Shown piece after piece: positions 2,182-31,526 of a stretch of 33,225 nt of DNA. The notes beneath the pieces were generated by a model. It worked only from the letters and a program-made list of their open reading frames with translations. It ran no database searches and was not told the origin of the DNA. Source of the DNA: Hyphomicrobiales bacterium (GTDB lineage Bacteria; Pseudomonadota; Alphaproteobacteria; Rhizobiales; JAJFHB01); contig JAJFHL010000156.1 of assembly GCA_021775615.1 (NCBI GenBank), forward strand, positions 1 through 33,225, given 5' to 3'. Position 1 is the stretch's first letter. Every line of letters starts with the position of its first letter. A program made the position numbers and the translations under genes.

Positions 2182-2277
2182 ATGGACAATGGCGCCCTGC
2201 CGGGCATGGTCCGGCATGCCGACCGGGCGGAAAGCTGCGGTTGCGTAACGATGCATGCGTGCCCGGTGGCAGCATGA
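2182..2277 (+). CDS. Candidate 31-residue leader ORF translationally coupled to guanine deaminase
   Basis: A short ORF too small for ordinary gene callers. It starts at ATG 2182, six bases after a strong GGAGGTG Shine-Dalgarno, and runs 31 codons to a TGA at 2275-2277. That stop overlaps the guanine deaminase ATG at 2274 in an ATGA junction, the usual signature of translational coupling. The peptide begins MDNGALPG and ends in HACPVAA; it has three cysteines and no obvious membrane segment. Its start lies in the right arm of an inverted repeat, so its translation could be gated by RNA structure. It may be a regulatory leader peptide, a small protein, or a non-functional run with a good ribosome site by chance. 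Confidence 0.4.
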   Translation: MDNGALPGMVRHADRAESCGCVTMHACPVAA

Positions 2278-11541: not shown

Positions 11542-12783
11542 ATGAACCGATCCACAGAACATGACGCCGCCAATCAAGAAGCGTTCGAACGCCTGACAAC
11601 CGCGAACCCCGTGCTGACCGATGTGGCGCCCGCAATCGACGTGGTTCCGGGCATGACCAAAAACACGGTCCTGACCTCGGGTCCGCCGCTGCCGTGGGAG
11701 GCCTATGAGGGCGGCCAGCGCGACGCGATCATCGGCGGAGCGCTGTTCGAAGGGCTGGCAGGCAACGCGGAAGAGGCGGCCGAAGGGTTTGCCAGCGGTG
11801 AGCTCAAGGTCGACGGCTGCCACGACTATGGCTGTGTCGGCTCGCTGGCGGGCATCTATACCGCATCGATGCCGGTTTTCGTGGTGCGCAACGAGACCCA
11901 CGGCACCGTCGGCTACTGCAACATGTATGAGGGCAAGTCGCCAAAGCGGCTCAATTACGGCGTCTATGACGAGGACGTCCGCGAGCAGCTCCAGTTCATC
12001 GGCGACAAGGTGGCCCCGACAATCGGCGCGGCGACCCGGGCGCTTGGCGGCATACCGCTCAAACCGATCATGAGCCGGGCGCTGCACATGGGCGATGAGC
12101 TGCACTCGCGCAACACGGCGGCATCACTTCTTTTCGCGCGCGAACTGATGCCGGCGTTCCTCGACTTGGCCGACGTGCCGCGCAGCGATGTGCGCGACAC
12201 GATGGAGATCCTCACCGAGGACCACTATTTCTTCCTGCGCCTGTCGATGGCGGCGGCGAAGGCGATCGCCGATGCGGCGCATGGCGTCGAGAACTCCAGC
12301 ATCGTGACGGCGATGTGCTTCAGTTGCGCCGAATTCGGTATCCGGGTTTCGGGCCTTGGCGACGAGTGGATCCGGGGGCCGCATGCCAGCGTCCAGGCCA
12401 AGCTGTTCGACGGCCACACGGAAGACGAGATTTCCTGGATGGGCGGCGAAAGCCCGATCACCGAAACCGTGGGATTGGGCGGCTTCGCCCAGGCGGCCGC
12501 CTTCCCGCTGCAGGCCTATCAGGGCGGCGACCCGCAGGCGATGGTCGACCGCAATCTGAAGCTCTACGACATCACCCAGGGCGAGAACCCGGATTTCCAT
12601 ATTCCGTTCCTCAAGTATCGCGGCACGCCGACGGGGATCGATGTCTTCAAGGTGGTCCAGACCGGAATCCTGCCAATGATGGACATCGGTATCGCCGGCA
12701 AGGGCGGCGGGCAGATCGGCGCGGGAACCGTGCGCGCACCCATGGAGTGCTTCGAGGCGGCGGTGGCGAAGTTCGGCGGCTGA
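11542..12783 (+). CDS. DUF1116 protein (AllG/YlbE-like), stand-alone
   Basis: 413-residue member of the DUF1116 family, whose E. coli member YlbE (AllG) works with FdrA (AllF) and AllH in the carbamoyl-transfer step of anaerobic allantoin/oxamate use. Recognisable features are the opening NPVLTDVAPAIDVVPGM, PPLPWE, the Cys/His-rich DGCHDYGCVGSLAGIYTASMPVF, FVVRNETHG, GYCNMYEG, SRALHMGDELHSRNTAA and the glycine-rich end GIAGKGGGQIGAGTVRAPMECF. A GGGAG ribosome site precedes ATG 11542. No FdrA or AllH homologue is in the window, so its partners, if needed, are elsewhere. A link to purine/ureide nitrogen metabolism fits the nearby guanine deaminase and urease, but the reaction is not established for stand-alone copies. 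Confidence 0.8.
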   Translation: MNRSTEHDAANQEAFERLTTANPVLTDVAPAIDVVPGMTKNTVLTSGPPLPWEAYEGGQRDAIIGGALFEGLAGNAEEAAEGFASGELKVDGCHDYGCVGSLAGIYTASMPVFVVRNETHGTVGYCNMYEGKSPKRLNYGVYDEDVREQLQFIGDKVAPTIGAATRALGGIPLKPIMSRALHMGDELHSRNTAASLLFARELMPAFLDLADVPRSDVRDTMEILTEDHYFFLRLSMAAAKAIADAAHGVENSSIVTAMCFSCAEFGIRVSGLGDEWIRGPHASVQAKLFDGHTEDEISWMGGESPITETVGLGGFAQAAAFPLQAYQGGDPQAMVDRNLKLYDITQGENPDFHIPFLKYRGTPTGIDVFKVVQTGILPMMDIGIAGKGGGQIGAGTVRAPMECFEAAVAKFGG

Positions 12784-15499: not shown

Positions 15500-16381
15500 T
15501 CATTTACGGCGGACGCTCGCCGGAGAGCCCGTTAGTTCTTCGCGCATCGCCGACCAAAGTCCCGTCATGGCCGACCTGAGATCGGCCCCGTCCGACGCCA
15601 TCACCCGGGCCCAGACACCGCGCCCTCCCGGCAACAATGAACTGCCGACCGACGACGTACTGAAATCGCCTGCAGCGCGGCGGCTCACCTCAAGCAGCTT
15701 TCCCGCCTCGTGCCCGGGACTGTACGCGATGATGGTCCCGTGGCAACCATAACCGCCGGTGACGCCGATAGCGGGATCGGAAAAATCGCTGCCTTCGGCC
15801 TCGAACCGGTCGATGGCCATGGGCCGGCCCCTCTCGTCCTCTATCACCACGTCGGAAATCATGCGGTCGAATGGGCGCCCCTTGCCCTCTGGATCATGGG
15901 TAAGGAATGCATCGAACAGAACCACCGATGCCGAGGCGGCGGCCTGCACTTTGACCTTCGAAACGAGGTGGGCGCCGGGCAACAGGATGACCGGATCGGG
16001 CAGATACTCCACATAGGCCTCCGCGTCCGCCACGATCCGCATCTCCTGGCTTGCGGGGCCACGCGCGGATTTGTGCACGATGGTCGAGGCCTGGGTGGTG
16101 AGATGCACCTGCGCGCCGGCGCCGGCGCGCACCGTGGCGCGAAGACTGTCCTGCGTGTAAAGCCCGCCTGAACTTGACTGGGTGTAGACCGTGGCCATGC
16201 CGGGCGCGGCGCTGTCCAGGTAAAGCGCACGGCAGACGTGAAACGGGTATGACGCGAATTGCCGGTCAAGATAGGTCTTGCCCGAAGGCGCGCGCTCGAA
16301 GCCGAGCTCAAGACGTCCGCCGACCGTGCCGGTGTCGGGAGCGCCCGTGGCCGGTGGCGCGATCTCCAGGACGCTATGCAT
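15500..16381 (-). CDS. ureD: Urease accessory protein UreD
   Basis: About 293 residues; UreD (UreH in Helicobacter) is the scaffold that joins UreF and UreG on apo-urease during nickel insertion. Family features seen are [26 protein letters not shown] near the start, then [29 protein letters not shown] and [18 protein letters not shown]. The start is either ATG 16381, whose sequence ATGCATAG overlaps the ureG stop by 8 bp, or ATG 16396, five residues longer; neither has a strong ribosome site, so translation coupled to ureG is likely. It follows ureG and precedes the nickel transporter. Confidence 0.92.
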
Positions 16382-17030
16382 CGACGAACAGGACATCGTG
16401 GCAGAGCTGGTCGACCACGGCCGTGATCCCCTGATTGTCGCGGCAGTTGGTGAGGATCACCGGCCGTCCGGACCGCACCGCGTCCGCCTGCTCTTGCATG
16501 AGGTCGAGATCGACATCGACATGGGGAGCCAGGTCGGTCTTGTTGATGACGAGAAGGTCGCTGCGAACGACACCGGGCCCCCGTTTGCGGGGAATGTCGT
16601 CTCCGCCGGCCGTGTCGATGACGAACATCCAGTAGTCGACGAGATCAAGTGAGAAGGTCGACGCCAGATTGTCGCCGCCGCTTTCGATGAGAATCACCGA
16701 GGCGCCCGGAAACTGTCGGCTCAGCTCGTCCGCCGCGGCTATGTTCAAGGTCGGGTCCTCCCGGATGATGGTGTGCGGGCAGGCGCCGGCCTCCACCGCC
16801 CTCACCCGGTCGGGCGATATCAGCCCGCTGCGCTGCAGGCGCAGGGCGTCTTCCTTGGTGACCAGATCGTTGGTGACCACCGCGCATTCGATGCCGCGTT
16901 GGCCGAGTTCGGGTATCAGCCGCTCGATGAGAGCGGTCTTGCCGGAACCGACCGGGCCGCCGATGCCAATACGCGCCGCCGACGCGGGCTGAACCCGTGC
17001 CGGGGGGTCAGCGGTGACTGTGTCGTCCAT
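16374..17030 (-). CDS. ureG: Urease accessory GTPase UreG
   Basis: 218-residue SIMIBI-class GTPase that supplies energy and carries nickel for urease maturation. The P-loop GPVGSGKT is at 25-32. The nickel-binding CPH motif (C84-P85-H86, in [17 protein letters not shown]) is intact, as are the switch segment [14 protein letters not shown] and the guanine-specificity motif NKTD. The N-terminus carries a short 18-residue extension but not the long His-rich tail of some UreG proteins, in line with a separate His-rich transporter in this operon. It starts 9 bp after ureC and overlaps ureD. Confidence 0.97.
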
Positions 17031-17039
17031 GATCCCTCC

Positions 17040-18752
17040 TCACCGCATCATGTAGAGTTGCGCCAACGGCAACCTGTCCGCCGGCTCGCAGGTCGCCAGC
17101 TCACCATCGACGAAGACATCGAACGTCTGGGTATCGACGGTGACCTCGGGGCAGGCCGAATTGTGCAGCATGTGCTGCTTGTTGAGCTTGCGGGTGCCCC
17201 TGGTCGCCAGGAGATGCTTTGACAGGCCGAGCCTGCCGGCAATATCGCTCTCAATCGCCATGGGATTGACAAATGAGGCGCTCAACGCCTGCTTCGCCCG
17301 CCCGAATGCGCCCCATTGCGGGCGCATCTGGACCGGCTCGCAGGTCATGAGCGAGGCGGCGCTGTCTCCCATGGCGCCCCAGGCGATGAAGCCGCCCTTG
17401 ACCACAATCTCCGGCTTGATGCCGAAAAAGCCCGGCCGCCAGAGCACCACGTCGGCGAGCTTGCCGGGCTCGAGGGACCCGACATGCTGCTCGATGCCGA
17501 AGGTGCGCGCGGCGTTGATCGTGTATTTCGCGATGTAGCGCTTGATGCGCTCGTTGTCGCCGTTCGCCGTGCGCTCCTCGGGCAACCGGCCACGCTGGTC
17601 GCGCATTTTCGAGGCGAGCTGCCAGGTCCGGCAGATGACCTCGTTGATGCGGCCCATGCCCTGGCTGTCGGAGCCAAGCATGGAAATCGCGCCGAGATCG
17701 TGGAGCACGTCCTCCGCCGCGATGGTCTGGGCACGGATGCGGCTCTCGGCAAAGGCCACGTCCTCGGGGATCGACGGGCTGAGATGATGACAGACCATCG
17801 TCATGTCGAGATGCTCGTCGAAAGTGTTGACCGTGTAGGGATTGGTCGGGTTCGTCGAGGACGGCAGGCAGTTCATTTCGCCGGCCACGCGGATAATGTC
17901 GGGGGCATGTCCGCCACCCGCACCTTCGGTGTGATACATGTGGATCGTGCGGCCGTTGATGGCGGCGAGCGTGTCCTCCAAAAAGCCGCTTTCATTGAGC
18001 GTATCGGTGTGAAGCTGGACCTGGAAGTCGAGCTCGTCGGCGACCGACAGGCAGGTGTCGATGGCGCTCGGCATGGCGCCCCAGTCTTCGTGAATCTTCA
18101 GGCCGAAGGCGCCGCCGGCGATCTGATCGTATATGGAGCGCGGCTTGGAGGTGTTGCCACGGCCGAGAAAGCCGAAATTGATCGGCCATTGCTCCGCCGC
18201 CTGCAGCATCTTGCCGACATTGAAGGCCCCGCCGCAATCGATGCCGACGGTGATGGGCCCGAGCGAACCGCCGATCATTGTGGTGAGGCCGGACGAGATG
18301 GCGTGCTCGCAAAGCTGGGCGGAGTCGAAGTGCACATGGACGTCTATACCGCCCGGTGTCGCGATCAGTCCCTCGGCGTCACGCACGGTGGTGGCGGCGC
18401 CGCAGATCAGGTTGGAGTCGACACCGTCCATGATACCCGGATTGCCGGCTTTGCCGATGCCGGCGATGCGGCCGTCCTTGATGCCGATGTCGCCCTTGAC
18501 GATGCCGAGCACCGGATCGATCACGGTCGCATTGCAGAGCAGCATGTCGAGGGCGCCCATGGCGCTGTCGTAACCCGGCGTCAGGCCGAGACCGTCGCGC
18601 AGGGTCTTGCCGCCGCCATGCAGGCACTCGTCTCCGGGAACGCCGTAATCGTGTTCGACCACCGCAAACAGGCTGGTGTCGCCGAGGCGCACCGCATCGC
18701 CGGTGGTGGGCCCGTACATATGCGCATAGTCTTCGCGTTTCATCTTTGCCAT
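17040..18752 (-). CDS. ureC: Urease subunit alpha
   Basis: 570 residues, the normal length of the catalytic subunit that hydrolyses urea to ammonia and carbamate. All di-nickel ligands are visible: H139 and H141 ([10 protein letters not shown]), the lysine to be carbamylated K219 and H221 (GLKIHEDWG), H248 (VQLHTDT), H274 ([12 protein letters not shown]) and D362 ([10 protein letters not shown]). The mobile-flap cysteine and histidine are present in [22 protein letters not shown] (C321, H322). Nothing suggests inactivation. It starts 5 bp after the fused ureAB gene and precedes ureG. Confidence 0.98.
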
Positions 18753-18757
18753 TGTCT

Positions 18758-19450
18758 TCAGGCCCCTTTGTAACCCTGGTCGCGAGCGCGTTTCAGCGCC
18801 GCCTGTTTCACGGTTTCGCTGGTGGCCGACCCGTTGGTGAGACCGTTCAGCCCGTGCAGTTCCTTGGTTCCACCGAATTCGGTGAGCGTGACCTCCTTGG
18901 CCTCGCCCGGCTCGAACCGGACCGCGGTCCCGGCCGGAATGTCGAGCCGCTTGCCAAAGGCCGTGTCACGGTCGAAATCGAGCGCCTTGTTGGTCTCGAA
19001 GAAGTGGTAGTGGCTTCCCACCTGAACCGGCCTGTCGCCGGAGTTGGTGACCTTCAAAGTGACGGTATCGCGGCCCGCGTTGATCTCTATGTCGCCGTCC
19101 TCGCAGACGAGTTCGCCCGGCGCCTCGTTGGCGGCCTTGCCCTTGCCGGGGCGTATCGGGTCATGCACCGTCACCAGCTTGGTGCCGTCGGGAAAGGTTC
19201 CCTCGACCTGAATGATGGGAATGAGGTCGGCGACCCCGGGCATGACATCGTCCTGGCTGAGCAGGGTCGAACCGTAGCCGATCAGGTCGGCCACCGAGCG
19301 CCCGTCACGGGCCCCTTCGAGGATTTCGTCGGAGATATAGGCAACGGCCTCCGGATGATTGAGCTTCAGACCCCGGGCCTTGCGCCGGCGCGATATCTCG
19401 GCGGCGGTAAAGATGGTCAATCTTTCCAGTTCGGTTGGTGTCAGTAACAT
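18758..19450 (-). CDS. ureAB: Fused urease gamma-beta subunit (UreA-UreB)
   Basis: 230 residues covering two normally separate urease subunits in one chain. Residues 1 to about 100 are the gamma subunit ([48 protein letters not shown]). A short linker [12 protein letters not shown] leads into the beta subunit ([56 protein letters not shown]). There is no stop or frameshift between them. The same order of fusion is known from Helicobacter UreA, and fused forms also occur in some alphaproteobacteria. It lies between ureF and ureC and supplies the non-catalytic frame of the enzyme. Confidence 0.95.
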
Positions 19451-19474: not shown

Positions 19475-20158
19475 TCAGTTGGCAAAAAGACGCATTTCGT
19501 CGGTCTCGTGGTTCATGGATGCGATGTCGGTCTGTGGAACAAAACTGTGAATGGCGTCCGGGCCGGCGACGGCCTGGCCAAGCAGATCCTCGATGACCGG
19601 ATGCAGGTCGGCGAGCACGCGCTGGGCGTCGAAATGACCGATGATCGCGAGGCGGACCGCCGCGCTTAGAAGGCCGGTGCACAGGGCGTGCGCCGCCATC
19701 CGCTGGATGAGCTGGGCATCGAACCCGAGCCGCTGCCACACCAGGCCCTGCACCACCGGCAGGTGCCCGGCGGCCAGACCGTCATGCACACGGGCCAGAT
19801 AGGCCTCGGCATCGCGCGTCTCCAGTTTGACGTGGATCGCAAGCAGGGCCGCGCCCATGCGCCGCGAGCCGTCGCGCTGCTCGGCGGCCAGGGTCTGCGC
19901 CTCGACCCGCCAGTCGAGGGCGGCAAGTGCTTCCATATCACCCGCGGCGGCGTGGGCGTGGATCATGACAGGACGCTCGAACACCGCCCACCGGTTGGTC
20001 AGCTGGGCGCGAACGAACTGGTGCAGATCGCGCCGCGTGGACACCAGGCCACGGTTGCTCATGGTCTCAAGCCCCCAGGAAAACGACACCGCGCCGCTTG
20101 GAAAGAAGCTGTCGACATGCTGGAACGCCGCCAGCGGAATGGCGCCGGGATCACTCAT
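19475..20158 (-). CDS. ureF: Urease accessory protein UreF
   Basis: 227 residues; UreF acts in the UreD-UreF-UreG complex as the activator or fidelity checker of the GTPase. The opening AAFQHVDSFFPSGAVSFSWGLETM is the family's N-terminal signature, with SGAVSFSWGLE in place of the more common GGFAHSYGLE. The middle has GHLPVVQGLVWQRLGFD and the C-terminal part LLSAAVRLAIIGHFDAQRVL. The start codon overlaps the ureE stop (ATGA at 20155-20158), so the two are translationally coupled. The fused ureAB gene follows after 24 bp. Confidence 0.93.
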   Translation of the reverse strand: MSDPGAIPLAAFQHVDSFFPSGAVSFSWGLETMSNRGLVSTRRDLHQFVRAQLTNRWAVFERPVMIHAHAAAGDMEALAALDWRVEAQTLAAEQRDGSRRMGAALLAIHVKLETRDAEAYLARVHDGLAAGHLPVVQGLVWQRLGFDAQLIQRMAAHALCTGLLSAAVRLAIIGHFDAQRVLADLHPVIEDLLGQAVAGPDAIHSFVPQTDIASMNHETDEMRLFAN

Positions 20159-20619
20159 GGTGCCTGCTCATGACACTCACTCAGGACCACTCGCCCGTCA
20201 TCGAGAAAGTGCCTCAGGCGATCGATGTAATCGAGCTCGGGTCCTTCCAGAGCAACAAGCAGATGGTCGCCCTCAAACCTAACCCGCCAATGCAGATTGC
20301 CGGCGAAATAGCCCAGTTCAAGCGCCGCGGCGCTGTCCCTCGGGCGCACTGCAAGCCACCGCTCATCCGCCAGACGCACGACAACGGCGCGGTCTTCGTC
20401 GAGCAGCAAAACCGCCCCGTCGCCCAGGCACTGTTCGCGCGGCAGGGCAATCAGGCAGTCGGTCCCCTTGTCGGTGCGGGCCCGCAATCGCCGGCGATGG
20501 ACGTCTTCGCCGGCAAGCATCACGTATTCGACGCCGCCGGCATGCCCGAGATCATGCAGGCGTCCGGCGAAGGCGGCTTCGCTGGCGAAACCCAGGATCT
20601 GCGATACTCTCACTTCCAT
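20155..20619 (-). CDS. ureE: Urease accessory nickel metallochaperone UreE
   Basis: 154 residues from ATG 20619. UreE delivers nickel to the UreDFG complex. The N-terminal half is a peptide-binding-like domain (LAGEDVHRRRLRARTDKGTDCLIALP), and the C-terminal half carries the conserved metal histidine in ELGYFAGNLHWRV (H110), equivalent to the GN-x-H of the family. The usual His-rich tail is nearly absent: the end is LSECHEQAP with one cysteine and one histidine, so storage capacity may rest with the transporter's His loop. A GTG at 20628 would add three residues; ATG 20619 has the better GGTGAG ribosome site. It is the first urease gene and follows the ureohydrolase pair by 60 bp. Confidence 0.88.
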   Translation of the reverse strand: MEVRVSQILGFASEAAFAGRLHDLGHAGGVEYVMLAGEDVHRRRLRARTDKGTDCLIALPREQCLGDGAVLLLDEDRAVVVRLADERWLAVRPRDSAAALELGYFAGNLHWRVRFEGDHLLVALEGPELDYIDRLRHFLDDGRVVLSECHEQAP

Positions 20620-20679
20620 CACACTCACCGAACAATGACGCTCACCGAGACTTGAGGTGCTCCGCGTCCACGCTCACAC

Positions 20680-21711
20680 TCAGCCCGGCCGCCTGACCTC
20701 TTTGTCGACAACCTCGCCGCGCGCCTGCGCCATGGCGGCCAGGGTCCGCAGGATGACGCAGACCGCCAGCCGCGACGTTGTTCCGCTGACGTCGAATATG
20801 GGACACAGCTCAGACACCTCGATCACGCTTACCTTGCCGCGCGCGCCAAGCGCGCCGGCGACGCGCATCATCTCGCGCGATTCCATTCCGCCCGGCTCGG
20901 TGGCGGTTACGCCCGGCGCCGCCGAAGCGTCCATGACATTGAAATTGAAGCTCACATACTGGGCGTCGGTGCCGTCCCAGGCCCGTGCGATGGCTTCCTC
21001 GGCGACGGTGTCGACACCGCGGTCAAGCACTTCGAGCATAGGGAAGAACCGCAGGCCTCTCTGCTCGGCCAGATCGATCCAGTCCTTCGGATTGAGCGAG
21101 TTGCGGGCGCCGACATGGGCGGTGTTGGCACTGGCGAGGTTGGGAAGCTCGCTGATGCGCGCCAGCGCGCAGGTGCTGACGTCCCGCTCGCCGGCCCAAC
21201 TGTCGGCCATTTCGAGATGGGCGCCGAAGTGCAGGTAGCCCATCTTCTTTTCGGCCCCGATATGGTCGGACAGCGCCCTGGTCGCGGGGATCGAGATCGA
21301 CCGGTCGCCACCGCAGATGATCGGGGTCACGCCGGCGGCGAGGATCGTGCGCACCGCCTGGTAGATCCGGTCGCGCGAGAGGGCCGGATTGACCTTGGGC
21401 ATCTGCACGTCGCCGCAATCGGCGCTGCAGCCGTAGAGATCGACCTGATACTCGAACCAGTAGGGAAAATACTCCTGCGAGGCGAGACGGAATTCCCGGG
21501 GACCCTCATCCGATCCGGGCTTGCCGACGTTGCCTTCATCGAACGGCGCGCCGATGAAGGCGAACCGCACGCCGGCCTCCCGCAGTTTTTCGGTATCAAG
21601 CGGCACGTGATCGGCGCGCATGAAGGTGATCTGACCGGGGGCGCGGTAGTTTTCCGCATCGTCGCCGCCCTGAGGGGAGAACAGATGGGCGAAGGCTTTG
21701 GCAGGGTTCAT
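20680..21711 (-). CDS. Ureohydrolase-family protein lacking metal ligands (probable beta subunit of heteromeric ureohydrolase)
   Basis: 343 residues of the arginase/agmatinase fold, but the di-metal site is dismantled. GGDH has become GGDR (R137), DAHxD has become GAHLE (G163 and E167, only H165 kept), and DxD has become NFN (N256, N258). The rest of the fold, for example IGAPFDEG, VGARNSLNPKDW and PGVTATEPGG, is well kept, so this is selection for structure and not decay. The gene lies 52 bp downstream of an intact paralogue. Known metformin hydrolase and dimethylguanidine hydrolase are heteromers in which only the alpha subunit binds nickel, and this protein fits the beta role. ATG 21711 is chosen because GAGGAGA lies just upstream. 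Confidence 0.85.
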   Translation of the reverse strand: MNPAKAFAHLFSPQGGDDAENYRAPGQITFMRADHVPLDTEKLREAGVRFAFIGAPFDEGNVGKPGSDEGPREFRLASQEYFPYWFEYQVDLYGCSADCGDVQMPKVNPALSRDRIYQAVRTILAAGVTPIICGGDRSISIPATRALSDHIGAEKKMGYLHFGAHLEMADSWAGERDVSTCALARISELPNLASANTAHVGARNSLNPKDWIDLAEQRGLRFFPMLEVLDRGVDTVAEEAIARAWDGTDAQYVSFNFNVMDASAAPGVTATEPGGMESREMMRVAGALGARGKVSVIEVSELCPIFDVSGTTSRLAVCVILRTLAAMAQARGEVVDKEVRRPG

Positions 21712-21763: not shown

Positions 21764-22831
21764 TCATGGCGCCTTGCCCTCATCACGCAGGGTCTTCGCG
21801 CGGCTGCCGAGATAGTGGTAGATCATGCAGCAGGCCAGCTTGATGCTCATCTGGCTGACATCGAAGATCGGGCTGAGTTCGGAAATCTCCAGCACATCGG
21901 CGCCATAGGTGCCGGCGGTGCGGGCGATCTGCAGCGCCTCGCGCGACGTGATGCCGAAACATTCCGGCGCGGTGGTCCCGGGCATGCAACTGGCGTCGAG
22001 GGAATCCGTGTCCCAGGAACAATAGATGCCGTCGGTGCCGTCGCCGGCGACCTCGAAAATCTCCCTGGTGCAGTCTTCAACGCCGCGCTCGACGACCTCC
22101 ATCATCGGGATCAGGGTTGCGTCGGTGTCGACGAAAAAATCGTACCAGTCCTTCGGGTTGAGGCCGTTGCGCGAGCCCATATGGGCGATGTTGACGCCGT
22201 CGCAGTTGGGCAGATCGAAAGCCCGTGAGACCGGGGAACAATTGGTGTTGTCGATGCCGCCCCAGTCCGGCGCCGAGTCGAGATGGCAATCGATGTGCAT
22301 GTAGCCGATCTTGCCGTTCTTGTGGAAATCGGACAGGGCGCGTGCGCCCGGGATCGGTGCGGAATGGTCGCCGCCGCAGAAGATCACCTTGGCGCCGCCT
22401 TCGAGGCACTCGGTGATGTATTCGTAGATGAACTCGTGCGAGCGGTTGTTGTTGCCGGTGACGATCGGCACGTCGCCGCAGTCCACCGGCCGGAAAAAGC
22501 TCATCAGATCGACGCCGAACTCGAACATGTAGGAGAAATACTGGGTCGAGGCCTCGCGAATGCCGGTCGGGCCGGAAGAGGTGCCCGAGCGCACCATCTG
22601 GCCCTGGTCCCACGGCACGCCGAGGAAGCAGATCTTGGCGCCCATCTCGCGGATCGCGTGGCGGTCGGGCGGGCAGTAGGGCGCGCCCATGAAGGTGGCA
22701 ATGCCGCCTGACTTGAACGTGCCGTTATGCAGCTTGGGTGAGTAGATATGGTCGTCTTCGCCGGTATGCTGCCGTGGCCCCCGGTGCTGATGAGGCACGA
22801 ATTCCCAGCCCAGTGTTTTTGTTTCGCTCAT
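21764..22831 (-). CDS. Ureohydrolase (agmatinase/guanidine hydrolase family), catalytic alpha subunit candidate
   Basis: 355 residues of the arginase/agmatinase superfamily, which hydrolyses guanidino groups to urea plus an amine. All six metal ligands are present: H156 (FCGGDHSAPIPG), D181, H183 and D185 (HIDCHLDSAPDW), and D274 and D276 (SWDTDSLDAS). The N-terminus is long (about 65 residues before GAKICFLGVPWDQG), as in guanidine-type hydrolases rather than E. coli SpeB. The frame is open far upstream inside the ATPase gene; ATG 22831 with GGGAGA upstream is the start that fits. Between an uptake ABC transporter and urease, a guanidino substrate with urea as product is the best inference. 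Plain agmatinase is possible but less likely given the partner. Confidence 0.88.
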   Translation of the reverse strand: MSETKTLGWEFVPHQHRGPRQHTGEDDHIYSPKLHNGTFKSGGIATFMGAPYCPPDRHAIREMGAKICFLGVPWDQGQMVRSGTSSGPTGIREASTQYFSYMFEFGVDLMSFFRPVDCGDVPIVTGNNNRSHEFIYEYITECLEGGAKVIFCGGDHSAPIPGARALSDFHKNGKIGYMHIDCHLDSAPDWGGIDNTNCSPVSRAFDLPNCDGVNIAHMGSRNGLNPKDWYDFFVDTDATLIPMMEVVERGVEDCTREIFEVAGDGTDGIYCSWDTDSLDASCMPGTTAPECFGITSREALQIARTAGTYGADVLEISELSPIFDVSQMSIKLACCMIYHYLGSRAKTLRDEGKAP

Positions 22832-22881: not shown

Positions 22882-23733
22882 TCAGGCACCGTTGCCCCGG
22901 CTCGGGCTCTCTTCGCGCATCATGCGCATGATGTGTTTTTCCAGTTCGGCGTATCCCGCCATGCCGATGATTTCTTCTTTTTCCACATTGCGCCGGCCCG
23001 ACTTGAACTCGGTCACGAGGTTTTCGCGAATGCGCCCGGGATGGCGCGACATGAACAAGATGCGGTCGGCAAGGAAGATGGCTTCTTCGATATCGTGGGT
23101 GACCATGAGGACCGTGGTCTTCGACGTCTCCATGATGCTCAACAGAAGCTCCTGCATGGCCCAGCGCGTCTCGGCGTCGAGGGCGCCGAAAGGCTCGTCC
23201 ATGAGCAGGATCGCTGGATTGTTCGCCAGGGTCCTGGCGATCGCCACGCGCTGCTTCATGCCGCCGGAAAGCTGTGAGGGATAGGCGGTGCGGAACCTGG
23301 TCAATTGCACCAGGTCGATGAAATAGTCCGCCTGTTCGCGGCGCTCCGCCTTCGGCACTCCGTTGAGACGCATGCCGTATTCCACATTCTGCTGCACCGT
23401 CAGCCAGTCGAAGGACGTGTAGGACTGGAAAACCATGCCGCGGTCGCCACCGGGCCCGAGGATTTCGTGGCCGTCGAGAACGAGGGTCCCCGCGGTCGGT
23501 TCCTCGAGGCCAGCGACCATGCGCAGAAGTGTCGACTTGCCGCAGCCGGACGGCCCAAGGAGAATGCACAACTCGTTATCGGCGACGTCGAACGAGGCGT
23601 CGACCACCGCGTCTATGCGCTCGCCGTCGGCCAGCGGAAACGACTTTGACACACTCGTCACACGGAGCTTCGAGCCGCTGACAGAACGGTCCGGTCCGGC
23701 GGGACTGTCGTCACTTTGCTTCCGCTTGGCCAT
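22882..23733 (-). CDS. ABC transporter ATP-binding protein, NitT/TauT family
   Basis: 283-residue ATPase of the nitrate/sulfonate/taurine-type importers (TauB/SsuB-like). Walker A GPSGCGKST is at 60-68, the Q-loop in MVFQSYTSFDWLTVQQNV, the signature LSGGMKQRVAIARTL at 155-169, Walker B ILLMDEPFGALD from 175, and the H-loop in LMVTHDIEEAIFLADR. A charged tail of about 30 residues precedes the domain. ATG 23733 is preferred over the start six codons upstream because AGGATCGCA precedes it. It lies between the binding protein and the ureohydrolase alpha gene (50 bp), so it should power uptake of that enzyme's substrate or of a related nitrogen compound. Confidence 0.93.
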   Translation of the reverse strand: MAKRKQSDDSPAGPDRSVSGSKLRVTSVSKSFPLADGERIDAVVDASFDVADNELCILLGPSGCGKSTLLRMVAGLEEPTAGTLVLDGHEILGPGGDRGMVFQSYTSFDWLTVQQNVEYGMRLNGVPKAERREQADYFIDLVQLTRFRTAYPSQLSGGMKQRVAIARTLANNPAILLMDEPFGALDAETRWAMQELLLSIMETSKTTVLMVTHDIEEAIFLADRILFMSRHPGRIRENLVTEFKSGRRNVEKEEIIGMAGYAELEKHIMRMMREESPSRGNGA

Positions 23734-23808
23734 TGCGATCCTGTTCCACAAATGATCCGGTCTGCGTTCCGCCGGGCGTCGGCGGCCGCCGTATTTCGGT
23801 ATTGTTTT

Positions 23809-23859: not shown

Positions 23860-24915
23860 TTATTGCGCGTAACCCGCCTTGTGCAGGTCGCTCAGCAGCG
23901 AGCAGTCAATGCCCGCCTCCGGCGCCACGGTCTTGTCCATCTGACCGAATTTGATCCACCAGTCGTTGGTCATCTTCCAGTGGTCGGTGATCTGGCTGTT
24001 CTTCTGACCGAAGGGAGGGTCGCCGGGTGCGGAGCCACAGAAGCGGGCCGCTTCCATGAAGCCGTAGGGATAGAGCCCGCCATCCTTGCCGGTGCCGTCT
24101 TTGCCGATCACCAGCTCGACATCGGCCACCGACATTTTCATGCCGTCGGCAATGATCTTGTTGCCCTCGGTGGGGTTCTTGCGCCACCAGGCGATGGCGT
24201 CGTAAAGCGCCTGCATGGTCTTGACCGCGACGTCGCGGCGTTTGGCGATGAAGTCCGAGTTCATGAACACCGAATCCGCAATCAGCGCGTTGGACAGCCA
24301 GAAGGGCTCACGCGACTGGGCCGCAAGACGCGACCCTGGCAGGTTGGTCAGGATCTGCGTGCCGAACGGATCCCAGAATTCAGCCGCCGCGACATCGCCG
24401 CCGATCATTGCCGAAGCGGCATCGTCCATGATCAGGTTGACATACTCGACCTTGTCATAGGCGACGCCGTTCTGCTCAAGCCAGATCGCCATGTAAAGCT
24501 GGGCGAGGCCGCCTTCCAGCACAGCCACCTTCTTGCCGATCAGATCCTGGGCGGACTCGATGCCGGGGCCGACGACGATCTTGTCGGTGCCGTAGGACAG
24601 ATTGCCATAGGCAACCAGAGAGATCGGCATGCCCTGGGCGGCGGCGATCGGGGCGAACTCAATGGTGCTCGACACCACGTCGAGCTGGCCCGAGGTCGCC
24701 AGGCCGAAGCTCTGGTAGGGATCCTCGATCGCCTGGTAGCTGATCTCGAGATCGGGCGCGAGACCCTTCTCCTGGGCGATGAACCAGAAACCGTAGCCCG
24801 GCCAGGTCAGGCCGGCGATACTGACCTTTTCCTTGGCCTGGGACGGTGCGGCCCAGGCGACGGCAAGGGCGACAAGCGCCACCGTCAGAATGCTGCGTAA
24901 AGATTTGTAGGCCAT
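23860..24915 (-). CDS. ABC transporter substrate-binding protein, NMT1/THI5 (NitT/TauT) type
   Basis: 351 residues with a signal peptide (hydrophobic 9-22, SQA cleavage at 27). The mature protein opens KEKVSIAGLTWPGYGFWFIAQEKGLAPDLEISYQ, the standard start of the NMT1/THI5-like fold, and continues with DPYQSFGLATSGQLDVVSS and AVLEGGLAQLYMAIWLEQNGV. Many aromatic residues (YGFWF, EFWDPF, DWWIKFG) could form a pocket for a cationic ligand, but this is speculative. Gene order permease-SBP-ATPase with the ureohydrolase pair following makes a guanidino compound the favoured ligand. Taurine, nitrate or thiamine precursors are family alternatives. Confidence 0.92.
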   Translation of the reverse strand: MAYKSLRSILTVALVALAVAWAAPSQAKEKVSIAGLTWPGYGFWFIAQEKGLAPDLEISYQAIEDPYQSFGLATSGQLDVVSSTIEFAPIAAAQGMPISLVAYGNLSYGTDKIVVGPGIESAQDLIGKKVAVLEGGLAQLYMAIWLEQNGVAYDKVEYVNLIMDDAASAMIGGDVAAAEFWDPFGTQILTNLPGSRLAAQSREPFWLSNALIADSVFMNSDFIAKRRDVAVKTMQALYDAIAWWRKNPTEGNKIIADGMKMSVADVELVIGKDGTGKDGGLYPYGFMEAARFCGSAPGDPPFGQKNSQITDHWKMTNDWWIKFGQMDKTVAPEAGIDCSLLSDLHKAGYAQ

Positions 24916-24999: not shown

Positions 25000-25863
25000 C
25001 TAAGCCTCCCGTTCGTTGATGTATGGAAACAGAAGCCGGTGGGCGAGCCGGAACAGATAGTCGAAGGTCAGGCCCAGCACGCCGATAACAAGAATACCCG
25101 CCATGATCTGCTCGACATGGAGGAACCGCTTGGCGCGCATCATCATGGCGCCGATCCCAGTCGTCGCGGCGACGATCTCCGCGATCACCAGATAGGTCCA
25201 GGAGACCGCCAGCATCTGGCGCATGGCCACCAGGATACTTGGCATGGAGGCCGGAATGACGACGGTCCTGAGAATCTGCCAGCGGTTGCCGCCAAGGGTC
25301 ATGGAGGTCTCGATCAGCTCCGTGCGTACGGATTTCACGTGGTCCATGATGATGGTGATCAGGAACCAGATAACGCCGATGAACAGCAGGGCGATCTTCT
25401 GGCCTTCGCCGGTTCCGAACCACATCAGCAGGAGCGGAATGAATGACGGCGCCGGCAGATAGCGCCATGACGACACAAGGGGATTGACGAAGGCTTCGAC
25501 GCGCTTGAACGAGCCCATCAGGATGCCGAGGGGAATCGCAATCGCACAGGCCAGCGCGAAGCTCAGCGCAATGCGGTAGACGCTGATCACCACGTCGGTG
25601 AGGAAGCCCTGCTCGACAACGAGCTTGTAGAGACCGGCGAGGACCTTCTGCGGCGGCGGCACGAACAGGGCATTCACCCACTGGAACGCAACGGCCGCTT
25701 CCCACAGCGCGAAGAAGATGACCCAGATCGAGATGCCGAGCGCGATGGTGTGGTGACGGGGAATCGGCGTCTTGAATTCCAGCCAGCGCCGCTTGCGGCG
25801 CGAGCCGGTCGGAGAACCGCCGCGTTCGGTCCGGACTTTTCCCCCTTTGGCGCTCGAGACCAT
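25000..25863 (-). CDS. ABC transporter permease, NitT/TauT family
   Basis: 287-residue inner-membrane permease with about six hydrophobic helices after a basic cytoplasmic tail of 35 residues (RRKRR). The coupling loop ETSMTLGGNRWQILRTVVIPASMPSILVAMR is the EAA motif that contacts the ATPase. PAPSFIPLLLMWFGTGEGQKIALLFIG and AEIVAATTGIGAMMMRAK are typical for SsuC/TauC relatives. It starts 71 bp downstream of the Lrp gene and precedes the binding protein by 84 bp; no separate promoter is evident in either gap, so it is likely read from the Lrp promoter. Confidence 0.93.
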   Translation of the reverse strand: MVSSAKGGKVRTERGGSPTGSRRKRRWLEFKTPIPRHHTIALGISIWVIFFALWEAAVAFQWVNALFVPPPQKVLAGLYKLVVEQGFLTDVVISVYRIALSFALACAIAIPLGILMGSFKRVEAFVNPLVSSWRYLPAPSFIPLLLMWFGTGEGQKIALLFIGVIWFLITIIMDHVKSVRTELIETSMTLGGNRWQILRTVVIPASMPSILVAMRQMLAVSWTYLVIAEIVAATTGIGAMMMRAKRFLHVEQIMAGILVIGVLGLTFDYLFRLAHRLLFPYINEREA

Positions 25864-26801: not shown

Positions 26802-26804
26802 CTA
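26690..26804. repeat. Rhizobial-type mosaic palindromic repeat
   Basis: Nested inverted repeats: ATCACG...CGTGAT with an inner TTGGG/CCCAA stem (about 26694-26738), then CTCCAA-TATC-TTGGAG (26742-26757). The last is a long hairpin GAGCGGGATC (26755-26764) with GATCCCGCTC (26793-26802), enclosing GGAAAA/TTTTCC. The combination ACGTGATCGA ... GAGCGGGATC ... TTTTCC ... ATCCCGCTCTAG is one I recognise as a dispersed intergenic repeat of Rhizobiales genomes. The outer arm supplies the TAG stop of the glutamine synthetase gene. Confidence 0.65.
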
Positions 26805-28226
26805 GTAGAACCGGAGATATTCTTCGACTTCCCACTCCGATATGGAAACCGAATAGCGCTCCCATTCATCGTCCTTGTAGGCGCAGTAGGACTTGTGCAG
26901 CTGCTCGCCCATGGCAGTGCGCATGACCTCGTCGGCCTTGAGCATGTTTATTGCCTCCTGGAGCGTGCGCGGCAGGCGCTGGACGCCGGCATCGTCGAAT
27001 TCCTGCTCCGTCATTTTGTAGAGGTCCTTGCCGAGCGGCGGGCCCGGATCGATCTTCTCGACCATGCCGCGGACCACCGCGGCGGTCGTGCAGGCAAGCG
27101 CAAGATAGGTGTTCATGCACATGTCGACGGCGCGGTTTTCGACGCAGTAGCGGTTCTGCGGCAGGCGCAGCATAGCGGATCGGTTGTTGGGTCCGTAGGT
27201 CACATGGGTGGGCGCCCAGGTGTAGACGCCGCCTTCGAACCCGGGCACGCGGGCGACGAGGCCCTTGTAGGACGTCACCGTCGAGCAGGTGATCGCCGAC
27301 AGCCCGCCGCCGTGGCGCAGGAGCCCGCCGACCGCATGGTTGACTTCGTCGGCCCAGCCGTCCTTCGAATTGCCGAAGAGGTTCTCTCCGGTCTTGACGT
27401 CCTGGATTGAAAAATTGATATGCGCGCCGGAACGCCAGTCGCCGATGGTCACCTTGGGCATGAAGGTGACGAACAGGCCATGGTTCTTGGCCACTTCTTT
27501 CAGGAACACCCGCAGGAAGGTGAGCCGGTCTGCCATTTCGACGACATGAGTGTAGCCGAAGTCGAGTTCGAACTGGGAATAGGCGCCTTCGCAGACCACA
27601 TCGTGCAGGTCCCAGTCGAGATCGCCGAGAATGTCGATCAGGTCGCCGAGAAAATCCATCGAATCCGCAGTCGCCTCGATGTCATAGCCCCAGGCCTGGC
27701 GGCGCGGGAACCTGCCGTTGCGCAGGGGCGGGTCGACATCGAACGCCTTGATCGGCAGCCCGTCTTCGTCGTAGCGCATGACGATGAACTCGGGCTCGAT
27801 GCCGGCCATCGGCCGGTAGCCGGCTTCGGCGGCTTCGGCAACCTGTCGCTTGAGCGCCATGCGCGGGCACACATTGTAGGGCGCGCCCTCCCAGTAGAGA
27901 TCGGCGAAAATGAAAGCCTGGGCCGGATCCCACGGACAGATGTAAACCGCATCGAGATCGGGGATCATGATCTGGTCGGGGTCGGCCGGCCCGAGTTCGG
28001 GAACGAAGGATACGGAGTGGACGGCAAATTGCGGGCCCTTGCCAAGGCACAGTTCCTCGAAGTCCCACATGGGCACCGGCTTGGTCTTGGGCACACCGAG
28101 GAGGTCGATCCAGCAGGACAGGACATACTTGACGCCCGCCGCCTCGAGCCGCGCCTTGACCTCGGGGATCTTGCCGCGATTGCGCTCGATCGCCTCTTCC
28201 ATGGTTTCGTAATAGATCTTGCTCAT
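26802..28226 (-). CDS. Glutamine synthetase-family enzyme (GlnT/gamma-glutamylamide synthetase-like)
   Basis: 474 residues of the glutamine synthetase superfamily, which ligates ammonia or an amine to glutamate using ATP. Present are the N-terminal VLSCWIDLLGVPKTKPVP, the metal/glutamate motif AGIEPEFIV, EGAYSQFELDFGY, GAHINFSIQD in place of the usual GSGMHVHQSL, and the nucleotide/arginine region NNRSAMLRLPQN. The divergence from housekeeping GlnA and the adjacent dedicated Lrp regulator suggest a specialised enzyme, for example a gamma-glutamyl-amine synthetase. Near an operon expected to release urea-derived ammonia and an alkylamine, it could capture either; the amine specificity is not readable. 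It follows the Lrp gene at 53 bp. The C-terminal stop codon lies in a repeat element. Confidence 0.87.
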   Translation of the reverse strand: MSKIYYETMEEAIERNRGKIPEVKARLEAAGVKYVLSCWIDLLGVPKTKPVPMWDFEELCLGKGPQFAVHSVSFVPELGPADPDQIMIPDLDAVYICPWDPAQAFIFADLYWEGAPYNVCPRMALKRQVAEAAEAGYRPMAGIEPEFIVMRYDEDGLPIKAFDVDPPLRNGRFPRRQAWGYDIEATADSMDFLGDLIDILGDLDWDLHDVVCEGAYSQFELDFGYTHVVEMADRLTFLRVFLKEVAKNHGLFVTFMPKVTIGDWRSGAHINFSIQDVKTGENLFGNSKDGWADEVNHAVGGLLRHGGGLSAITCSTVTSYKGLVARVPGFEGGVYTWAPTHVTYGPNNRSAMLRLPQNRYCVENRAVDMCMNTYLALACTTAAVVRGMVEKIDPGPPLGKDLYKMTEQEFDDAGVQRLPRTLQEAINMLKADEVMRTAMGEQLHKSYCAYKDDEWERYSVSISEWEVEEYLRFY

Positions 28227-28279
28227 GTCGCTCTTCCCCTGTTTGTCGGCGGCGCCCGTTGCGGGCTGTTCTTGCCGTG

Positions 28280-28828
28280 TCAGCTCCAGTTCCGTTTCAA
28301 GAGGAACTGGTTCTTGAAGCTCTTCAGACCGGCCATGGTCTCGACCGAGGCGATGTCGGCCTGGTTGTGCACCTGTTCTTCCAGGAACCTCAGGAACTGG
28401 TCCTTGTCGTCATTGACCACTTCGACAAGCAGGTCGTAGCGACCGGCGGTCCACAAGACGTAGACGACTTCGGAATGAGCGCCCAGACGGGTGGCAACGT
28501 CTTCCGGCGTGTGGCCGGGCGCGACCTTGATGCCGAGCATGGCATCGGTGCGGTACTCGACGGCGACCGGATCCGCAATGGCGACGATGCGCAGCATGCC
28601 GGCGCTCTTCATCCAGTTGACCCGGTTGCGGATGGTGCCTTCGGAAACGTTCAACGCGGTCGCGATTTCCGCGTAGGGCATGCGTCCGTCTTGCTGGAGC
28701 ATGCGGATGATGTCGCGATTGAGCGAGTCGTGCGGAGAGGCGACTTCCTGCGAGCGGGTGCGCGGGGCATCGAGCGGCACCGCCTTGAGGGTCCCGTCGG
28801 ACCGCTGCCCTTTCGCTCTGCCCGCCAT
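28280..28828 (-). CDS. Lrp/AsnC-family regulator of the glutamine synthetase/Rieske block
   Basis: 182 residues from ATG 28828, which has a GGAGAGGTGTGGAG ribosome region; an earlier in-frame start at 28891 would extend into the promoter. A basic tail of about 30 residues precedes the helix-turn-helix (LNRDIIRMLQQDGRMPYAEIATALNVSEGTIRNRVNWM), then the effector domain (VVYVLWTAGRYDLLVEVVN). It is a close relative of the Lrp gene at 25935-26459. It heads a minus-strand pair with the glutamine synthetase and is divergent from the Rieske oxygenase gene, so it may act on both through the shared 180-bp control region. Confidence 0.92.
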   Translation of the reverse strand: MAGRAKGQRSDGTLKAVPLDAPRTRSQEVASPHDSLNRDIIRMLQQDGRMPYAEIATALNVSEGTIRNRVNWMKSAGMLRIVAIADPVAVEYRTDAMLGIKVAPGHTPEDVATRLGAHSEVVYVLWTAGRYDLLVEVVNDDKDQFLRFLEEQVHNQADIASVETMAGLKSFKNQFLLKRNWS

Positions 28829-28866
28829 ACTCCACACCTCTCCGGCACCTGTATTCGGCTTCAATC

Positions 28867-28930
28867 GGTTTCGAAACCCGTAAACAGGCAATCATGTGTT
28901 ACTGATTGCGTAACAAACTATGTCTATGAT
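28867..28930. promoter_or_regulatory. Operator palindromes and promoter between Lrp and Rieske oxygenase genes
   Basis: The 180-bp divergent gap holds three perfect inverted repeats: GGTTTCGAAACC (28867-28878); GCAATCA (28888-28894) with TGATTGC (28903-28909); and, overlapping it, TGTTAC (28897-28902) with GTAACA (28910-28915). The last has the core TTAC-N7-GTAA also seen at 26569-26583. A plus-strand -10 TATGAT lies at 28925-28930, which puts its -35 region inside the palindromes, so a bound regulator could block or activate the Rieske promoter. Confidence 0.55.
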
Positions 28931-29008
28931 ACGTTTTCGTCAACAAGGAGATTCATTCGTTGCATAAACCGCAGCGAATCCCGGGTTCGAAGGTTGAGTG
29001 CAGACGCC

Positions 29009-30382
29009 ATGACAGACACAGCTCCGAGCGCATCGCAGACCACGTTTTCCGGATATCACCAGTCGCAGCCGGCCGGCGCCGACGAAGAGCTGGCGCGGAT
29101 CGGACCCACCACGCCTGGTGGGGAATACATGCGCCGCTTCTGGCATCCGGTGTTCATCACCGAAGAGCTCGGCGAGCTGCCGTCGCTGGTCCGCGTCCTG
29201 GGCGAGGACCTGGTGCTGTTCCGCTATGCTGGCGACAAGTTCGGCCTGGTGCACAAGCACTGCCCGCACCGGCGCGCCTCGCTGGAATACGGCAAGTGCG
29301 AGCCGCGCGGCATCCGCTGCTGCTATCACGGCTGGCTGTTTGCCGCCGACGGCGAAATCCTCGAAACGCCCGGCGAAGCGCGCGACGCCGAACCCGCCGC
29401 CAAGGTGCGCGCCCGCACCCGGCTCGGCGCTTATCCGGTGATCGAGTTCAACGGCCTGATCTTTGCCTATCTCGGGCCGCCGGACGCCATTCCTGAATTC
29501 CCGATTTACGACGCCTTCAAGATCCCCGGCATCACCATCCGGCCCTACAAGGCGCCTTACCGGTGCAACTGGGTGCAGGTGCTCGACGCCATCATGGATC
29601 CGGTGCACACGTCGTTCCTGCACAGCCAGATCAGCCATGCCCAGTTCTCCGAAGGCATGGGCGAGCTTGGCGAGCTGGGGTTCTACGAGCGCCATGAAAA
29701 CCACTTTCTCGGATCGAGCACGCGGCGCGTCGGCGACAATGTCTGGGTGCGGGTCAACGAATTGATCCTGCCCAACTTCACCCAGGCCGGCGCCGCCTTT
29801 GCCGCCGACGGCACCGCGTCGCGCTATTTCGGGCGCAGCGCCTTTACCCGCTGGGTGGTGCCGGTGGACGACGAGAATTCGATCGCTTTCGGGTGGGGTA
29901 ATTTCGGCGAGCGCGGCGACCCGCATGAATACAATACCAAGGAAGGCTGCGAGCTGATCGAGCAGGGCGAGATACTCGACCGCCCGGACGAAGAGCGCCA
30001 GCGCAACCCGGCCGATTCCGAGGCGGTGGAGGGCATGGGGGCGATCTCGACCCATATGGGCGAGAACCTGATGCCGACGGACCGCGGCATCTCACTCTAC
30101 CGGCGCCGCATCCGCCGCCAGATCAAGGAGCTTGCCGAGGGCTCCGAACCGCCACAGCCCCGCAAGGGCCCGACCGTGCACACCTACGGTCAGGACACGG
30201 TCTTGAACCTGCCGGCTGACGGCGCGAACGACGACCGGTCCTTCCTGCGCCAGGTCGGGGAAACCGTCATGGAAATCGAATTCGAACATGAAGGGTTGGA
30301 CGATGCGGCGCGCGACGAGGCGATTATCGCGAAGCTCAGGGACCTGGAGACAAACGGCCTGAACCGGGGTTCCACGACATGA
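29009..30382 (+). CDS. Rieske non-heme iron oxygenase, alpha subunit
   Basis: 457 residues from ATG 29009; the frame is open further upstream, but only through the control region. The Rieske [2Fe-2S] ligands are C85 and H87 (KHCPHRRASLEYGKC) and C104 and H107 (RCCYHGW). The catalytic domain has the mononuclear iron motif NWVQVLDAIMDPVHTSFLH with H200 and H205 and the bridging D197. It resembles phthalate-dioxygenase-type and O/N-demethylating Rieske enzymes that use a separate reductase; no ferredoxin or reductase gene is in the window. The substrate is unknown. N-demethylation of an alkylamine would fit the neighbours but is speculative. It overlaps the dehydrogenase gene by ATGA. Confidence 0.9.
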   Translation: MTDTAPSASQTTFSGYHQSQPAGADEELARIGPTTPGGEYMRRFWHPVFITEELGELPSLVRVLGEDLVLFRYAGDKFGLVHKHCPHRRASLEYGKCEPRGIRCCYHGWLFAADGEILETPGEARDAEPAAKVRARTRLGAYPVIEFNGLIFAYLGPPDAIPEFPIYDAFKIPGITIRPYKAPYRCNWVQVLDAIMDPVHTSFLHSQISHAQFSEGMGELGELGFYERHENHFLGSSTRRVGDNVWVRVNELILPNFTQAGAAFAADGTASRYFGRSAFTRWVVPVDDENSIAFGWGNFGERGDPHEYNTKEGCELIEQGEILDRPDEERQRNPADSEAVEGMGAISTHMGENLMPTDRGISLYRRRIRRQIKELAEGSEPPQPRKGPTVHTYGQDTVLNLPADGANDDRSFLRQVGETVMEIEFEHEGLDDAARDEAIIAKLRDLETNGLNRGSTT

Positions 30383-31407
30383 CCCAGGAGCGCACCGTCA
30401 AGGTGCACGTCAAGAACAACCACGCCGCACCGGACACCTTTCCGAACACTCCCGAAGGCGAAGAGGTGTTCACCATCACGCGCGAACGGTTCGACGCGGC
30501 GGCGGCACATTACCCTGACGTGGCGCGACGGCTCGAGGTCTTCATCGACTGGGACACGGAGACATGGGTGAGCTCGATGCAGGCCGCGGAGGTCCTTCTC
30601 ACCTGGGATTTTCCGACCGAAAATCTTGCCGCGGCCGCGCCCAATCTCAAGATGATCCACTGCATCGGCGCCGGCGTCGAACACCTCCTGCCGATGGACT
30701 GGCTACCCGACGGTGTGACGCTCACCAACAACAAGGGGGTGCATGCCGCCAAGGCCGGCGAATTCGGCCTGATGGGCGTCTTGATGCTGCACAACAAGGT
30801 GCCGGCACTGATGACCAATCAGCGCGCAGCGGCCTACGATTCTCTCTATTCCACTCCGATTGCCGGCAGAACGCTCCTGGTCGTCGGTGTCGGCAGCATC
30901 GGCGGCGCGGTGGCGAAACACTGCGCCGATCTGGGCCTCAACGTCATCGGCGTCAGCCGGCACGGCCGGGCGGCGGAAGGCGTGCACAAGATGGTGACGC
31001 CGGACGCGCTTGACGATGTCCTGCCGTCGGCGGACTTCGTTTTCGTTTCGACGCCCATGACGCCGGAAACCGCAAACCTCCTCGACGCGCGGCGCCTCGA
31101 TCTCCTCAAGCCCACGGCCGGGCTCATCAATGTCGGCCGCGCCGGGGTGATCGACTACGAACACCTTGCAGTGAAATTGGAAGCCGGGAGCCTCGCCGGG
31201 GCGATCCTCGATGTTTTCGATCCCGAACCCCTGCCCGCGACATCGCCGCTGTGGTCGACGCGCAACCTGGTGGTGACGCCACACGTCTCCGCCGACGACG
31301 GCGATTCCTATGTGCCGCTCACTCTCGACCTGTTTTTCCGCAACATGGAGCGCTATCTGGCCGGCGAGGAGCCCCTCAATCAGGTGCGGCCGGAGCTTGG
31401 ATACTGA
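30379..31407 (+). CDS. D-2-hydroxyacid dehydrogenase (NAD-dependent)
   Basis: 342 residues of the D-isomer 2-hydroxyacid dehydrogenase family. The Rossmann segment is LLVVGVGSIGGAVAKHCADLGLNVIGVSR. The catalytic trio is visible as arginine in LINVGRAGVIDYEHL, glutamate in DVFDPEPLP and histidine in VTPHVSADD. The first 50 residues differ from the common CtBP/GyaR start. Four-base ATGA overlap with the Rieske gene indicates translational coupling, so the two probably act in one pathway. Reduction of a 2-oxo acid or oxidation of a 2-hydroxy acid is expected; which one cannot be told. Confidence 0.9.
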   Translation: MTQERTVKVHVKNNHAAPDTFPNTPEGEEVFTITRERFDAAAAHYPDVARRLEVFIDWDTETWVSSMQAAEVLLTWDFPTENLAAAAPNLKMIHCIGAGVEHLLPMDWLPDGVTLTNNKGVHAAKAGEFGLMGVLMLHNKVPALMTNQRAAAYDSLYSTPIAGRTLLVVGVGSIGGAVAKHCADLGLNVIGVSRHGRAAEGVHKMVTPDALDDVLPSADFVFVSTPMTPETANLLDARRLDLLKPTAGLINVGRAGVIDYEHLAVKLEAGSLAGAILDVFDPEPLPATSPLWSTRNLVVTPHVSADDGDSYVPLTLDLFFRNMERYLAGEEPLNQVRPELGY

Positions 31408-31429
31408 AACACGGAACGCTTCCATCATC

Positions 31430-31510
31430 ACCACACTTGATCCGGTGATCTCCATCAGCCAACGTTGCGTCTATCGCATGAGATACGCGGATCAAGTCCG
31501 CGTATGACGC
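31430..31510. repeat. Dispersed palindromic element upstream of the M24 hydrolase gene
   Basis: Two hairpins face each other: ATCACC...GGTGAT around ACTTGATCC (about 31430-31450), and ATACGCGGA (31483-31491) with TCCGCGTAT (31497-31505) around TCAAG, followed by GACG. The second half shares the core CGGATCAAGTCCG and the ATGACG tail with the complement of the hairpin at 32887-32911, showing that both belong to one dispersed family. It ends about 20 bp before the M24 start, so its RNA form could affect that gene's translation. Confidence 0.6.
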
Positions 31511-31526
31511 GAGAGGGAACGTCTAT

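Follow-up and report, generated by a model that had tools for sequence, protein, structure and literature searches.

A metal-less ureohydrolase paralogue beside an intact one

We asked what role falls to a ureohydrolase paralogue that has lost its metal site when its gene adjoins that of an intact ureohydrolase. The locus lies in a 33,225-nucleotide stretch of DNA from a Hyphomicrobiales bacterium (contig JAJFHL010000156.1), which is called the window below. Our answer, held at a probability of roughly 0.85, is that the following two genes specify the subunits of a single heteromeric DmgH/MefH-family ureohydrolase, in which beta is inactive.

20680..21711, minus strand: beta subunit, metal-less ureohydrolase paralogue, 343 aa (homology, ligand alignment, predicted fold and dN/dS)
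21764..22831, minus strand: alpha subunit, ureohydrolase with six metal ligands, 355 aa; pocket Q80, C184, W192, N199, T288-T289-A290 and E320 (MetCa numbering)

The beta frame runs open from an ATG at 21711, behind a GAGGAG-like ribosome-binding site, to a stop that ends at 20680. At the positions of the MetCa ligands H158, D183, H185, D187, D276 and D278, beta carries R137, G163, H165, E167, N256 and N258. Five of the six are thus changed and only H165 is retained, which bears out the claim of an earlier note, made from the sequence, that five ligands are replaced in an open frame. The same note held that the neighbouring alpha keeps all six, and we indeed observed them in the motifs GGDH, DCHLD and DTD. 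The two window proteins are 40% identical to each other over 324 residues.

Both subunits were compared with solved structures using phmmer against the PDB. The best match of alpha was metformin hydrolase subunit A (MetCa; 574 bits, 65% identity), and that of beta was metformin hydrolase subunit B, with 528 bits against 217 for the next match. Foldseek with a predicted single-chain beta model (mean pLDDT 76.8, weak at residues 1-27) returned metformin hydrolase beta chains at all of ranks 1-10, followed by GdmH of Synechocystis and the Nitrospira guanidinase. These two share the ureohydrolase fold with the window proteins, and GdmH is nickel-dependent; they differ in being single-gene enzymes, with ~27-30% identity to the window beta.

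Metformin hydrolase is an alpha2beta4 hexamer with nickel in alpha only; both subunits are needed, and the beta N-terminus caps the alpha pocket (PMC11271267, PMC11399263). The window pair resembles this enzyme (MefH/MetCaCb/MfmAB) in having a beta without five of the six ligands and an alpha with all of them. Alpha retains the non-ligand pocket residues Q80, W192, N199 and E320, and shares these as well as C184 and A290 with the metformin enzymes. In beta, Y22 and F82 and the N-terminal sequence of MetCb are preserved. By analogy, the window alpha would hold a two-nickel site and do the chemistry, and beta would be an obligate structural partner. For nickel in alpha, the six retained ligands and the adjoining urease genes are indirect pointers. 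An alpha2beta4 hexamer is expected, with the beta N-terminus capping the alpha pocket. Residues 1-23 of beta have a conservation of 0.762 compared to the protein average of 0.666; since 54 of 321 windows of the same length score as high, this is no special evidence for the cap. A counterpoint is the assayed pair RsMetCaCb (alpha 61.7% identical), which formed hexamers but had no metformin activity (PMC11271267, PMC11399263).

Beta is maintained as the partner of alpha

We assembled 33 full pairs from the 32 loci of a GTDB genome scan, adding the window pair and a second pair of its own genome and removing one duplicate and one fragment. Alpha adjoins beta in all 33, and the window follows the family pattern of an alpha with six ligands and a beta that has lost three to five. 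In the tree of pairs, alpha and beta separate at 100/100 support. The window alpha and beta each sit within their respective clade (100/100), together with their counterparts from the DmgH of Aminobacter niigataensis DSM 7050; the earlier note had proposed a tree with metformin and dimethylguanidine hydrolases as a check. When 18 other ureohydrolases of the window's genome were added to root the tree, alpha and beta were sister clades, each at 100/100 and joined at 100/97, and one duplication therefore suffices. Alpha and beta distances correlate across the 33 pairs (r = 0.86), which shared species history alone could explain.

Purifying selection on beta is evident from comparison with an 84% identical orthologue: its dN/dS of 0.09 is close to those of alpha (0.078) and ureC (0.07), although the values are approximate because dS exceeds 1 for both subunits. 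Constraint on beta is about as strict as on alpha. Together with the clade placement and the 528-bit match to subunit B, this supports the division of labour that the earlier note had drawn from metformin hydrolase. Could beta nevertheless be an agmatinase pseudogene in decay, or a protein that stands alone and plays no part in alpha activity? The loss of five metal ligands would fit such a view, but the frame is open, dN/dS is low, pairing is universal in our set, and beta groups with DmgH beta and not with decaying agmatinase genes. The pseudogene was rejected on dN/dS and clade placement, and we regard the whole alternative as scarcely credible.

The family is rare. A single close beta turned up among 385 sampled genomes of the class, and a single one among 398 of the phylum; each time it was that of the window, with no further one found. 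Three close kin of the same genus or family also hold one or two pairs. In a Rhodobacteraceae assembly, a fragmentary alpha and beta lie beside a complete urease operon (L057, 9945-10587), possibly a decayed pair.

The beta metal site was lost in steps

The ligand replacements recur in homologues from other genomes, with N258 in 33/33 betas and R137 in 29/33, and are therefore not due to chance. The loss of five ligands stands for the window itself, but E167 is not typical of the family: the ancestral Asp persists at this position in nearly all relatives, the 84% identical orthologue among them, and the usual count of replacements is four. In the order of the six ligand positions, the betas read H G H N D N (L052, L053), H G H D N N (L050), R G H D N N (most), R G H E N N (window) and R G/S Q D N N (Aminobacter). 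Every beta has G or S in place of D183 and N in place of D278, and the remaining losses followed later. E167 is thus a recent change in the window beta, and the count of five was reached independently there (D to E) and in the Aminobacter beta (H165 to Q). The series shows a metal site eroding stepwise while the partnership persists.

The presence of both His165 and Glu167 in the window beta, where the Aminobacter beta has Gln165, raises the alternative that beta binds a weak or single metal through these residues and aids catalysis. We consider this very improbable, as the equivalents of D183, D276 and D278 are G, N and N, that of H158 is R, and MetCb carries no metal by ICP-MS (PMC11271267). 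A salt bridge between R137 and E167 in place of the metals, as the earlier note suggested, would be compatible with the data and nothing further. All 29 betas with R137 have an acidic residue at 167, but this acid is a leftover ligand equivalent to Asp187, so their co-occurrence is no evidence for a bridge.

The pair is part of a urease operon

The window operon comprises an AsnC-type regulator, a glutamine-synthetase-like (GS-like) ligase, a taurine-like ABC importer, alpha, beta and the genes ureE, ureF, ureAB, ureC, ureG and ureD:

26802..28226, minus strand: GS-like ligase; best solved match glutamate-methylamine ligase, 235 bits
25935..26684, minus strand: Lrp/AsnC-type regulator; recurs beside several other window-type pairs
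25000..25863, minus strand: ABC importer permease, TauC-like
23860..24915, minus strand: ABC importer substrate-binding protein, NMT1/SsuA type
22882..23751, minus strand: ABC importer ATPase, taurine/nitrate type (ORF limits, start not fixed)
20155..20628, minus strand: ureE, urease nickel chaperone, 51 bp after beta
19475..20158, minus strand: ureF (position and conservation in orthologous operons)
18758..19450, minus strand: ureAB, fused urease gamma/beta subunit (sequence and position)
17040..18752, minus strand: ureC, urease alpha subunit, 81-90% identical in orthologous operons (sequence)
16374..17030, minus strand: ureG (sequence and position)
15500..16396, minus strand: probable ureD (position and conservation in orthologous operons; no NCBIfam match)

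Loci were compared by the residues at alpha positions 184 and 288-290, which define the three types described below. The operon is conserved among loci of the window's TTA type, where ureE follows beta directly in 7 of 13, compared to none of 12 TSC-type and none of 8 STS-type loci, and where the importer, regulator or GS-like gene is found again in most. Most TSC-type pairs adjoin a Pot-like (polyamine-type) ABC importer, a label taken from similarity to the neighbours of the second pair.

We propose that a small imported N-alkylguanidine would most likely be hydrolysed to urea and an amine. The urea would feed the urease whose genes lie directly downstream, and the GS-like ligase might take up the amine. 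For the exact substrate class, N-alkylguanidine is a moderately probable assignment. Glutamylation of the amine by the ligase is a hint and no more.

A search with Rfam at gathering scores over six stretches, the window and five related ones, found neither a guanidine riboswitch nor any other RNA. The family PF11927, which we used as an indicator of dimethylamine oxidation, has no member in the window's genome. Two window-type pairs (L049, 7208-13123; L050, 9349-16327) adjoin a soluble di-iron monooxygenase (Phenol_Hydrox) and a RidA-family protein, the latter locus also with a reductase; L051 (11295-18242) has ORFs of the same sizes and order. The neighbours in L049 and L050 may bear on the substrate. 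Upstream of the window operon, Rieske oxygenase, 2-hydroxyacid dehydrogenase-like and M24 peptidase/creatinase-like genes lie on the opposite strand (28259-32699, plus). Further nitrogen-compound genes of the window encode a guanine deaminase (above the NCBIfam cut-off) and an AllG-like protein (2241-3638 and 11542-12783, both plus); the second pair has a 63% identical counterpart of the AllG-like protein nearby (L021, 3990-5237). The type III glutamine synthetase model has 19 matches in the genome, of which three exceed the cut-off, a large GS-like ligase set.

A second pair in the genome carries the nickel chaperone genes

The window's genome holds a second alpha/beta pair on another contig (C270), with the S184/STS residues of DmgH and adjacent hypBA; the sole HypA of the genome lies there. 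At the window cluster we found no hypBA, which is typical of the family there but not defining. Only ~50 bp separate the ABC ATPase frame from alpha in the window, and since hypBA occupies precisely this place in the 84% identical operon of L022, its loss from the window cluster is likely. Two further TTA-type clusters (L027, L033) are without hypBA, and their assemblies hold other pairs with it (L043, L055). With this pattern in 3/3 cases, sharing of chaperones between the two pairs of one genome would be the natural reading, and HypBA would be supplied to the window enzyme from the DmgH-type pair. Six genomes have two pairs, always of different types, a sample too small for significance. The 6.3-Mb genome of the window has 23 matches to the ureohydrolase family PF00491, which looks unusually large.

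Three pocket types among the alphas

Positions 184 and 288-290 are specificity determinants, S184/STS in DmgH and C184/NSA in MefH, and their mutation changed the activity or specificity of DmgH (PMC11399263). The window alpha has neither serine 184 nor the STS triplet of DmgH, and it shares C184 and A290 with MefH but not N288 and S289. The gene neighbours of the window pair are also different from those of MefH. Because residue 288 and the 288-290 triplet as a whole fit neither enzyme, any single substrate named for the window is a guess.

The alphas of the 33 full pairs split cleanly into S/A184 with STS (n = 8, including the proven DmgH of A. niigataensis DSM 7050), C184 with TSC (n = 12) and C184 with TTA (n = 13, including the window). 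The division of labour between alpha and beta was itself published in 2024, and these three pocket types are what is new here. The STS and TSC types are clades (99/95 and 100/100). The TTA type is not a clade and contains the most basal alphas (L052, L053), and for these reasons we infer from the tree that C184/TTA is probably the older state. If so, Cys184 of metformin hydrolase would be a reversal to the ancestral residue.

Is the window pair simply a second dimethylguanidine hydrolase, with neutral differences at 184 and 288-290? It is 65% identical to the DSM 7050 enzyme in both subunits, a Hyphomicrobium DmgH of ~70% identity keeps dimethylguanidine activity, and an association with urease has been argued for DmgH too (PMC11399263). 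Both systems have two clades, a tandem of alpha then beta and a degenerate beta, and the DmgH locus (L048) also has a urease gene downstream, although its ureE is 9.5 kb away. However, hypBA adjoins the pair at the DmgH locus and is absent at the window cluster, which has a taurine-like ABC importer of its own and urease genes immediately next to the pair. The genome already holds an S184/STS pair whose importer and neighbours differ from those of the window, DmgH-type loci form their own clade, and changes at these very positions were not neutral in DmgH. We find a second dimethylguanidine hydrolase rather doubtful, though a serious contender.

Metformin hydrolase has been presented as an enzyme recently adapted to a modern drug, with a poorly known natural background. 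Of the four residues associated with metformin activity, the window pocket already has C184 and A290, which are among those that gave DmgH some such activity. That the window pair is itself a metformin hydrolase is nevertheless highly unlikely: residues 288-289 are TT and not NS, and alpha is 65% identical to MetCa, whereas the known metformin hydrolases hardly differ from one another (PMC11399263). Moreover, C184/TTA occurs in 13 pairs including the most basal alphas, and adaptation to a modern drug is improbable there.

The placement in a urease operon, the active-site signature of its own and the second pair in the genome are the less ordinary features of the window pair, and the operon setting hints at a natural role in gaining nitrogen from alkylguanidines. 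A fuller reading, to which we give a little under an even chance, is that heteromeric ureohydrolases have diversified as a family, that the window type is closest to the ancestral one and serves the urease-coupled import and assimilation of an N-alkylguanidine other than dimethylguanidine, that the two types of one genome share nickel chaperones, and that MefH returned to the ancestral Cys184. On one contig (JABJGO010000013.1), two different pair types (L037 and L052) lie ~12 kb apart.
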